The position numbers and the translations under genes were made by a program. The notes beneath the pieces were generated by a model. That model searched no databases. It was not told the origin of the DNA and saw only the letters and a program-made list of their open reading frames with translations. Shown here one piece after another: positions 13,299-57,340 of a DNA stretch of 64,000 nt (the first letter of the stretch is position 1; the number at the start of each line of letters is the position of its first letter). This DNA is from Melioribacteraceae bacterium. GTDB lineage: Bacteria; Bacteroidota; Ignavibacteria; Ignavibacteriales; Melioribacteraceae. The stretch covers positions 1 to 64,000 of the forward strand of contig JAKIUC010000003.1 in the NCBI GenBank assembly GCA_021647785.1, in the 5' to 3' direction.

Positions 13299-13484
13299 AT
13301 TGCCTCCTGATAAAGAATAGTTGCAAAACATACTTTAGTTTATGCAAAATATTTAAGAAGTCAATTACGTATTAAGGTATTCCCTTTGCTAAAAATTGGC
13401 TTATTGAAACTTAATTATTATACAAAAACAATACAAGTTATTTTTATCTTATTTAATTAGACGTGATATCCCTTTCAACTTAAT

Positions 13485-13600
13485 ACTTGTTCGATATTCC
13501 TTATTCCTTGTTCGATATTCCTTGTTCGATATTCTTTATTCCTTGTTCAATATTCGTTATTCATTATTCGACATTCCTTATTTTTCCTTCATTATTCAGC
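13485..13600. repeat. Degenerate short tandem repeat
   Basis: Repeated units of the form CTTGTTCGATATTC alternating with CTTATTC, six or more times with drift. It fills much of the 330-base gap between the giant gene and the M49-like gene; no ORF or clear promoter is seen there. Confidence 0.8.
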
Positions 13601-25233: not shown

Positions 25234-25249
25234 ATCTACTAATTATAAG

Positions 25250-25323
25250 TACGCCCGAGTGGACTCGAACCACTAACCTACAGCTTAGAAGGCTGTTGCT
25301 CTATCCGATTGAGCTACGGGCGC
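25250..25323 (-). tRNA. tRNA-Arg (TCT)
   Basis: Acceptor GCGCCCG/CGGGCGT, D-arm AGCTCAATCGGATAGAGC, anticodon arm ACAGC-CTTCTAA-GCTGT with anticodon TCT, and T-arm GGTTCGAGTCC. Its 5' half is copied twice just upstream (25383-25490). Confidence 0.95.
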
Positions 25324-25382
25324 TCATTAACATCAAAATATCAAACTGAAAACAATACAATAAAATTAACTACATTCGTACT

Positions 25383-25436
25383 AACCTATCCCGCAGTAGC
25401 GGGATTGCTCTATCCGATTGAGCTACGGGCGCTCAT
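25383..25436 (-). pseudogene. tRNA-Arg-derived fragment with palindrome in place of the anticodon arm (copy 1)
   Basis: The acceptor 5' strand, D-arm and four flanking bases are identical to the real tRNA-Arg gene (25299-25327), and the TAACCTA after the anticodon arm is also kept. The anticodon arm itself is replaced by ATCCCGC-TACT-GCGGGAT. The T-arm and 3' acceptor are not recognisable, so it is not a functional tRNA. Confidence 0.85.
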
Positions 25437-25490
25437 AAACCTATCACACAGTGGCGGGATTGCTCTATCCGATTGAGCTACGGGTGCTCA
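25436..25490 (-). pseudogene. tRNA-Arg-derived fragment with degraded palindrome (copy 2)
   Basis: Tandem second copy of the preceding unit, about 53 bases later: the same tRNA-Arg 5' half with one change in the acceptor (GCACCCG), and a palindrome whose one arm has drifted. It indicates duplication of the aberrant unit rather than of the intact tRNA. Confidence 0.8.
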
Positions 25491-29228: not shown

Positions 29229-29245
29229 ATCCCGCATAGCGGGAT
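29229..29245. repeat. GC palindrome, ATCCCGC/GCGGGAT family
   Basis: Perfect ATCCCGC-ATA-GCGGGAT followed by TGT. The same arms occur at 25388-25405 in the tRNA fragment and at 31535-31554. Confidence 0.8.
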
Positions 29246-31534: not shown

Positions 31535-31554
31535 AATCCCGCCACTGCGGGATT
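31535..31554. repeat. GC palindrome, AATCCCGC/GCGGGATT
   Basis: Perfect eight-base arms around CACT, followed by G; same family as 29229 and 25388. Confidence 0.8.
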
Positions 31555-46631: not shown

Positions 46632-46946
46632 ATTGTTTCCTAGCTATGCACATAACTATTTATTAACCAAACAAAACACTTTCTTTTTCAGAGTGTTATT
46701 AAGAAAATGTCTTTCACTAATACTCTTAAATATAATTCTCTTTTTCGTTATAAGTTATTTTAATTAATTCTTTCAAATCAAGAAATGCAAATAATCATAA
46801 TATCCCGTCACATCAATTTCCGCAATTACCACTCTGTGCATTTCTTTTGAGTATTAAAATAATTAGAAAGTTGCTATTATTCCAATATTATTTTTTTAAG
46901 AATCTAATCACGTGGAGAATTTCACTTTTGTTACTATACAATAATG

Positions 46947-47255
46947 TTAAAACCTTACTCCAAGCATACCTAATATTATAACTCCAACAGAAATTGTAAT
47001 AGTAGAACCAAGTGTTGATATGGCTATAATACTTTACCAGTCATTTTTGAATTGCTGCCCATTACTTCTGCCATTACAAAGGATGCAATGGCTGTTGGTG
47101 TTCCCATTAAAATAAATAGGATTATAATACCTTAATCTTTCAAACCCAATAAAGAGCCGGCAATAACAGAAATTATTGGAAATAAAATTAATTTATTTGC
47201 GGATGCAATGAATGAGAGCCTTGAGGCTGTAAGCAATTTCTTTAAATCTATTTTG
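46947..47255 (-). pseudogene. Degraded copy of the C-terminal part of the AEC transporter gene
   Basis: Matches 56393-56693 (3' third of the AEC transporter gene) at high identity, together with the about 280 bases downstream of that gene (46672-46946 against 56030-56392). A two-base insertion near 47030 and an in-frame TAA near 47135 destroy the frame. There is no start. Relative to the 56-kb copy, this one lacks an about 100-base insert at 56115-56211. Confidence 0.85.
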
Positions 47256-47349
47256 GGTAAATTGTGCTTGGTCGGTAACTCACAACCCCTTATAAACAAA
47301 GGTAAATATGGGAAATCTACATATAGGAAGAATTTTCTTATCTTAAAAG

Positions 47350-52534: not shown

Positions 52535-52885
52535 TGTAATAATAGAACCGAGTGTTGTTATTGCAATAATATTACCAGTCATTTTTGAATTGCGCCCCAT
52601 TGCTTCTGCCATTACAAATGATGCAATGGCTGTTGGTGTTCCCATTAAGATAAATAGAATTATAACATCTTGGTCTTTCAAACCGAATAAAGAGCCAGCA
52701 ATAACAGAGATTATTGAAAATAAAATTATTTTATTTGCGGATGCAATGAACGCAAGCCTTGAGGTTGTAAGCAATTTCTTTAAATTAATTGAAGCACCAA
52801 TTCCTATTAATGCTAATGGAAGTGCAATGTCGCTAAGATACTCTAATGTTATTTTAATGGAAGGTATCAGTTCAATTTTGAAACA
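52535..52885 (-). pseudogene. Second partial copy of the AEC transporter gene
   Basis: Matches 56443-56795 (the internal and C-terminal part of the AEC transporter); the frame is still open: LEYLSDIALPLALIGIGASI..RLAFIASANKIILF..GTPTAIASFVMAEAMG..GNIIAITTLGSIIT. It lacks the N-terminal about 200 residues and the last about 15, so a transporter could not be formed. It ends where the lipoprotein gene begins its 3' end. Confidence 0.85.
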
Positions 52886-55983: not shown

Positions 55984-56114
55984 ATTTGTATTTATTGTTG
56001 TATAACTATACACCAACCCGACGAAACATTTTTGTTTTTCAGAGTGTTATTAAGAAAATCTCTCTCACTAATACTCTTAAATATAATTCTCTTTTTCATC
56101 ATAAGTTTTTTAAT

Positions 56115-56211
56115 CCCGCAGAGCGGGACAAGAGTTAATTCTCCACCCTTGGGGCGAAATAAAAATTCCGATTGATACTCCGTCCGTTTGCGGCGGGGTA
56201 GTTCATTTTAA
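56115..56211. mobile_element. About 100-bp palindromic insert present in one of two duplicated copies
   Basis: Compared with the duplicated region at 46741-46775, this copy carries an extra about 97 bases starting CCCGCAGAGCGGGACAAG and ending GCGGCGGGGTAGTTCA, between matching flanks (ATAAGTTNTTTTAAT and TTTTAATTCTTTC). The TTTTAAT at both edges may be a target duplication. It contains GC palindromes of the family seen elsewhere in the window. Confidence 0.7.
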
Positions 56212-56392
56212 TTCTTTCAAATCAAGAAATGCAAATAATCATAATATCCCGTCACATCAGCTTCCGCAATTACCACTCTGTGCATTTCTTTTGAGTGTTA
56301 AAATAATTAGAAAGCTACTATTATCCCAATATTATTTTTTTTAAAGAATATAATCACGTGGAGAATTTCACTTTTGTTACTATACAATAATG

Positions 56393-57340
56393 TCAAAACT
56401 TCACTCCAAGCATACCTAATATTATAACCCCAACAGAGATTGTAATAATAGAACCGAGTGTTGTTATTGCAATAATATTACCAGTCATTTTTGAATTGCT
56501 CCCCATTGCTTCTGCCATTACAAATGATGCAACGGCTGTTGGTGTGCCCATTAAAATAAATAGGATTATAATATCTTGGTCCTTCAAACCGAATAGAGAG
56601 CCGGCAATAACAGAAATTATTGGAAATAAAATTATTTTATTTGCGGATGCAATGAACGCAAGCCTTGAGGCTGTAAGCAATTTCTTTAAATCTATTGAAG
56701 CACCAATTCCAATTAAGGCTAATGGTAATGCAATATCACTAAGATACTCCAAAGTAATTGTAATGGGGGAAGGTAAATTAATTTCAAAGATAGAGACTGG
56801 AATAGCAAAATAGGCTGCAATAATTAATGGGTTTTTTCCAATTTCTTTTAATGTTTTAATAATACTTCCGCTGCTGGCTTGGTTCATAGGAACAGTTAAA
56901 GCAATTACAGCAAGCACATTAAATATTGGCATAACAAAGGCAAGCAGCATTACTGCTTTACCAAGATGGTCGCTATCAACAATACCAGTTAACATAGCAA
57001 TGCCTACAATTGCATAATTACTTCTGTAGCTTCCTTGTATAAAAGCACCTTTATCTTTAGGGGTTTTGGTAAATATATTTGCAGTAAGCCAGCTAATTCC
57101 GAAAACAAATAATATTAACAGAATTACAATTACAATCAGCTTAGTATCAAACGCAGTATCAATCTCTACACTTGCAAGCTCAAGAAATATTAGTGCTGGC
57201 AACGAAACATTGAAAACAAAGGTGGCAAGCTGTTTAACAAAAACATCACTGATAATATTAATACGTTTAAGAAGAACTCCCAGAAGGATTAACAAAAATA
57301 TTGGCAGAACTATATTGAATAAGAATACTATATTTTCCAT
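56393..57340 (-). CDS. AEC-family transporter
   Basis: 315 residues, about ten membrane spans, the full length of the auxin efflux carrier/malate permease family. N-terminal VLPIFLLILLGVLLKRINIIS, mid-protein RSNYAIVGIAMLTGI, C-terminal SDIALPLALIGIGASIDLKK and LFILMGTPTAVASFVMAEAMG are family blocks. Exports or imports small organic anions; the substrate is unknown. Its ATG follows the manA stop by one base, so it is translated with manA. Two partial copies exist in the window. Confidence 0.92.
   Translation of the reverse strand: MENIVFLFNIVLPIFLLILLGVLLKRINIISDVFVKQLATFVFNVSLPALIFLELASVEIDTAFDTKLIVIVILLILFVFGISWLTANIFTKTPKDKGAFIQGSYRSNYAIVGIAMLTGIVDSDHLGKAVMLLAFVMPIFNVLAVIALTVPMNQASSGSIIKTLKEIGKNPLIIAAYFAIPVSIFEINLPSPITITLEYLSDIALPLALIGIGASIDLKKLLTASRLAFIASANKIILFPIISVIAGSLFGLKDQDIIILFILMGTPTAVASFVMAEAMGSNSKMTGNIIAITTLGSIITISVGVIILGMLGVKF

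Follow-up and report, generated by a model that had tools for sequence, protein, structure and literature searches.

Partial tRNA gene copies whose anticodon arm is replaced by a GC-rich hairpin, and their association with GIY-YIG nuclease genes

Results

Two scarred copies of a tRNA-Arg gene

The window, a stretch of 64,000 nucleotides from a Melioribacteraceae bacterium, contains an intact tRNA-Arg(TCT) gene on the minus strand (positions 25249-25323), recognised by ARAGORN and by Rfam (RF00005, 72.4 bits), whose anticodon arm reads ACAGCCTTCTAAGCTGT. Upstream of this gene, on the same strand and beyond a spacer (25324-25382), lie two tandem units of 53 bases, copy 1 at 25383-25435 and copy 2 at 25438-25490, with a start-to-start distance of 55 bases. 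Each unit starts 3 bases before the tRNA 5′ end and matches the tRNA through position 27; an 18-base palindrome (ATCCCGC....GCGGGAT in copy 1) then occupies the anticodon-arm site, and the unit ends in the variable loop. In copy 1, all 31 bases from about -3 to 27 are identical to the intact gene (31/31), and ATCCCGCTACTGCGGGAT stands in place of ACAGCCTTCTAAGCTGT, followed by AGGTT(AGT) of the variable loop. Its palindrome, ATCCCGCAGTAGCGGGAT (25388-25405), has no mismatch. Copy 2 is 92% alike to copy 1, with a decayed hairpin, ATCACACAGTGGCGGGAT (25443-25460), that has 2 mismatches.

A sequence-only reading of this DNA had reported two tandem tRNA-Arg-like copies with a GC palindrome at the anticodon arm, and both units are indeed present. 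Only the 5′ part of tRNA-Arg is represented in them; neither a T arm nor a 3′ acceptor strand is present. In the covariance-model scan that had been proposed, neither copy was called a tRNA by Rfam; ARAGORN called neither, and neither was among the matches of a tRNA model search of the whole genome at E≤10. The tRNA models thus recognise in the copies no cloverleaf of a functional tRNA gene. An exact DNA search with the Arg unit in all genomes gave no occurrence outside its own genome.

Other repeats are present in the window. Long repeats with 73-96% identity across several hundred bases lie at 46680-47296, 52535-52834 and 56031-56740, and units of 21 bases (TATTCCTTGTTCGA...) are repeated in tandem at 13481-13592.

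The palindrome belongs to a dispersed family

The reading had also described the palindrome as one of a family scattered in the window. This was borne out: five members were counted (≤3 mismatches), when 0.31 were expected, and none of 100 shuffles reached five. Members outside any tRNA context are TCCCGCATAGCGGGA (29230-29244), TCCCGCCACTGCGGGA (31537-31552) and TCCCGCAGAGCGGGA (56114-56128). In the whole genome, 163 palindromes of the form TCCCG-N3-9-CGGGA were found, whereas the reversed control pattern occurred once; seven relatives had 33-160, compared to 1-15 for the control. Just 3 intact palindromes and 1 decayed one were found within tRNA copies in the window's genome, so that the suggestion of a spread of the family through tRNA-like structures is not supported.

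In the flanks of about 50 dispersed copies from two genomes (G123 and G000), no consistent CGTC tag (or TGTC/CCTC) preceded the stem. Nor do the dispersed palindromes have the shape of CGTC-tagged REPs, namely a stem of 8-9 bp starting with AT, a loop of 4-5 bases and a CCA tail; many have no A-T pair outside TCCCG, loop lengths vary, and the CCA tail is absent. At two loci of the window's genome, G000 (L121 on contig C52 and L122 on C95), genes for Y1 (RAYT-type) transposases are flanked by AATCCC-N3-GGGATT hairpins, which are related, not identical, to the family palindrome. Elsewhere in G000 (C61:58726), a family palindrome is followed by a second palindromic repeat, in what looks by eye like the final part of a coding sequence for a secretion domain.

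Scarred tRNA copies recur

A second locus was found in the window's genome. On contig C83, an intact tRNA-Gly(TCC) is immediately preceded by two tandem 5′ copies of tRNA-Gly, which have the same hairpin in the same place, and directly followed by a GIY-YIG gene. We then have the result of a scan of 84,980 genomes, nearly all of those compared being metagenome assemblies, with a query made of the end of the D arm followed by ATCCCG..CGGGAT, and hence anchored on one hairpin family. It returned 43 stretches, 38 of which proved to be tRNA copies (Gly, Arg and Lys) by comparison with intact tRNAs; the match typically ends at positions 26-28 and resumes at 43-45. They were found mainly in Ignavibacteria and other Bacteroidota, with single cases in KSB1, Zixibacteria and two candidate-phyla-radiation lineages. 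One genome of the window's family (G027) shares 1,691 identical bases with a contig named Melioribacter roseus.

An anchored test was carried out on 391 genomes of the class, with a pattern made of the tRNA-Gly D arm and any base but C at position 28. All 17 matches, in 10 genomes, had a hairpin at the anticodon arm (a TCCC..GGGA palindrome, decayed to ACCC..GGGA at one locus). Conversely, tRNA-Gly copies with a normal arm and a truncated T loop were found in none of the 391 genomes; when relaxed, the pattern used does find intact genes. Truncation and hairpin therefore go together in this test. The claim that a mobile palindrome sits precisely at the anticodon arm of tRNA copies is thus supported, and extends across tRNAs and phyla; of the genome-wide search that had been proposed, the palindrome and the similar tRNA-Gly copies came back, the exact Arg unit being confined to its genome.

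Copies upstream of an intact gene retain the 5′ end and in many cases break off at the T loop; those downstream retain the 3′ end. In single-copy cases, similarity is limited to the tRNA body, to the exclusion of the promoter region, and a tandem duplication including the promoter is ruled out for them. Later amplification of the copy together with its spacer is clear in L094, L112 and L063. Another possibility, counter-selection of copies that retain the anticodon arm, does not explain why a palindrome is found rather than a deletion. A target specificity for tRNAs with A27-T43 was rejected too: the pattern that gave 0/391 misses arms replaced from position 27 on, and the Val and Pro cases described below contradict it.

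Hairpins were also found in the D and T loops of some tRNA copies. In L142 (G045:C13:1-550), a unit of about 72 bases, made of a tRNA 3′ end and a terminator, occurs six times in tandem, with TCCCGAT[A/G]CTCGGGA in place of the T arm. In L181 (G123:C92), two copies upstream of a tRNA-Arg(ACG) have palindromes in the D loop and in the anticodon arm, one of them with an additional palindrome, CGTTAGCTAACG, nested in the D-loop region. In the tandem tRNA-Trp copies of L092 and L244, the hairpin stands where the variable loop and the 3′ side of the anticodon arm would be. Finally, a tRNA-Leu(TAA) called by ARAGORN in L093 (3448-3524) is a scarred tRNA-Gly copy with the hairpin TCCCGCTTAAAGCGGGA, and gene finders may therefore take such copies for real tRNAs.

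A GIY-YIG gene adjoins the intact tRNA at about 12 loci

At about 12 loci, a GIY-YIG reading frame begins where an intact tRNA ends, or shortly downstream. These are tRNA-Gly (L060, L064/L222, L084, L093, L095, L096 and L221), tRNA-Arg (L082), tRNA-Pro (L265, with two tandem rounds) and tRNA-Val loci (L270, L271 and L085). The frames are about 77-93 codons long and match the domain PF01541 (E 2e-17); in an alignment, the catalytic motifs (Y-Y, R and E) are kept, as in a homing endonuclease with a GIY-YIG catalytic domain. A search for open frames with strict motifs gave no match in L095, L099 and L082, so that some of the genes at these three loci may be damaged or divergent.

Most of the frames directly precede a displaced 3′ tRNA fragment that carries a hairpin within or close to the anticodon arm, and at about 10 loci the GIY-YIG gene lies between the intact tRNA and the scarred fragment. 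Several frames end within the displaced D loop. The 5′ and 3′ pieces of L093 share an identical hairpin. Other hairpin sequences were met at the Pro locus (TGGCGCG-CTT-CGCGCCA) and at one Val locus (TCCGCTGGCCAGCGGA), and the place of the hairpin is therefore more constant than its sequence.

This association, which the letters of the window could not reveal to the sequence-only reading, was assessed on 79 loci picked by tRNA similarity alone. Partial copies were present at 5 of 7 loci with a GIY-YIG gene and at 13 of 72 without (p = 0.006, an optimistic value, as loci within a genus are not independent). Many hairpin copies at other loci have no GIY-YIG gene, and in the window tblastn detected neither such a gene nor a remnant of one, be it in the spacer next to the intact tRNA-Arg or elsewhere. 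Searching the open-licence literature for tRNA-linked GIY-YIG cassettes, or for hairpins in tRNA copies, returned nothing relevant.

Filled and empty sites in close relatives

Occupied and empty alleles of one site were found in two genomes of the same genus. G265 has, in this order, a 5′ piece with hairpin, a spacer, an intact tRNA-Gly, the GIY-YIG gene and a 3′ piece with hairpin; at the same site, G288 has an ordinary tRNA-Gly, and both outer flanks are shared. Such paired alleles are expected of a homing endonuclease gene, and by sequence the pair fits a gain in G265 or a precise loss in G288 alike. A similar likeness of filled and empty sites was seen on the upstream side in G178 and G334. 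The intact tRNA beside the nuclease in G265 is identical to the empty-site tRNA of G288, while the displaced pieces are without the arm; the immunity that usually protects an occupied site is thus left unexplained.

Discussion

With the structure of the copies, their recurrence, the dispersed family, the GIY-YIG association and the empty sites in close relatives as direct observations, we give about even chances to the following reading: the scarred copies would be scars left by the invasion of tRNA genes by GIY-YIG cassettes, with a hairpin at the junction. A short cassette, seen at other loci as a complete replacement tRNA copy with a small GIY-YIG nuclease gene attached to its 3′ end, would enter a resident tRNA gene. 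The pieces of the resident gene would remain next to the new intact copy, those from the 5′ part upstream of it and those from the 3′ part downstream, with their anticodon arm (about 28-42) replaced by a GC-rich hairpin, usually a member of the dispersed TCCCG...CGGGA family. We infer that the nuclease makes the break and that the break falls in the anticodon arm; the hairpin would then enter during repair, or mark a site that has become resistant to cutting. At many loci the nuclease gene would later be lost, and the scarred pieces would multiply in tandem. For the window array, in which no nuclease gene lies, an origin by cassette invasion is suggested by its likeness to other loci, notably C83. 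The lack of GIY-YIG there, and at many scarred copies elsewhere, counts against this reading, as do the hairpins in D and T loops, the tRNA-Trp hairpin shifted towards 3′, and the identity of the intact tRNA of G265 with the empty-site tRNA of G288.

The main rival, which we regard as possible but rather doubtful, holds that no nuclease is involved: palindromes of a REP-like kind would insert into hairpin tips of single-stranded DNA, possibly by means of a REP-associated tyrosine transposase. The arms of tRNA genes would be such tips, only duplicated, dispensable tRNA copies would survive, and the GIY-YIG genes would be mere neighbours. The abundance of dispersed palindromes in the genome and the D- and T-loop hairpins fit this proposal, as do the Y1 transposase genes, two of them flanked by hairpins. 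In G123, moreover, a palindrome takes the place of the loop of a GTCATTGCGA..GAAGCAATCT repeat, and pairing is better between the flanks of dispersed copies than between re-paired flanks (-11.18 versus -10.48, sd 0.24, 0/200). At most sites, however, the flanks pair weakly or not at all, and the effect is only marginal in either genome taken alone (22/200 and 11/200). Duplication followed by an independent insertion should also leave truncated copies with a normal arm, and none was found; the position of the GIY-YIG genes, and the stop codons of their frames in the displaced D loop, are left unexplained. A preference of REP-like palindromes for hairpin tips may nevertheless be part of the same story as the cassette.

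A role of the copies as functional small RNAs, acting as decoys that resemble tRNA or as regulators and kept by selection for the new hairpin, is improbable. Arrays of 3-5 near-identical units (L094, L070 and L086) and hairpins that are paired in most copies speak for such a role, and copy 1 folds better than its shuffles (z -2.2). It is the hairpin itself, however, that gives this score; both the sequence of the hairpin and the truncation vary by locus, and most copies lack one acceptor side or the T arm and can form no cloverleaf. Still less credible is debris from the attachment site of a tyrosine integrase. Anticodon arms of tRNA genes are integrase targets, and displaced fragments beside an intact tRNA fit in outline, but integration does not swap both strands of the anticodon stem for a foreign palindrome, and the frame found between the pieces is GIY-YIG. 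Ordinary local duplication with chance drift, which the sequence-only reading had named as sufficient if the unit were unique and the palindrome family without a link to tRNA, a condition that does not hold, can be read into the window unit taken alone, but is next to impossible given the second locus in the same genome, the 17 of 17 matches in the anchored test and the 38 tRNA-like loci of the collection.

If tRNA genes are invaded by GIY-YIG cassettes, selfish nuclease genes would routinely enter essential single-copy tRNA genes and survive by bringing a spare tRNA, and the anticodon-arm scars would record the positions of the breaks. This would also give a handle on a long-open question, the movement of tag-less palindromic repeats of the RPE/CGTC kind. 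More tentatively, one may think of a minimal mobile element that would act on many tRNA isotypes, in Bacteroidota and beyond, and be made of a putative GIY-YIG nuclease that reads the hairpin structure of a tRNA gene rather than its sequence, of a replacement tRNA that would let the host survive, and of displaced pieces capped with a foreign hairpin.

Comparison with known systems

CGTC-tagged REPs and the Rickettsia RPE-4 and RPE-6 are, in the portions consulted of Di Nocera et al. 2013 (PMC3733652), short, dispersed, GC-rich palindromes, found in Bacteroidetes and Chlorobi too, in intergenic regions and inside genes; AT occupies the first two positions of the CGTC-tagged stem, and no dedicated transposase is known for this type. 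As far as those portions go, the palindromes described here are alike in being short, dispersed and GC-rich, with a similar stem, and differ in replacing the anticodon arm of tRNA copies, which is unmentioned there. Since the CGTC tag and the CCA tail are absent in the contexts read, where loops also fall outside 4-5 bases, we did not assign the family to the CGTC-tagged REPs or RPEs. With REPs mobilised by RAYT (TnpA-REP), there are in common the Y1 genes, two of them with AATCCC-N3-GGGATT hairpins, and the outer ATCCC/GGGAT arms; the inner stem differs here, and a tetranucleotide tag was not observed.

Other mobile DNA, such as tRNA-gene integrases and group I introns, also makes use of the anticodon arm or the anticodon loop of tRNA genes. 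An intact gene adjoining a displaced fragment recalls the former; here, unlike in both, a palindrome replaces the arm; no intron was detected, nor was an integrase noticed. Free-standing GIY-YIG homing endonuclease genes likewise are small and sit in or beside a conserved gene, close relatives having either the filled or the empty allele. In contrast to these, the target here is a tRNA gene, and a complete replacement tRNA comes with the cassette; a foreign hairpin is found in the displaced pieces, while the presumed target persists in the intact tRNA.
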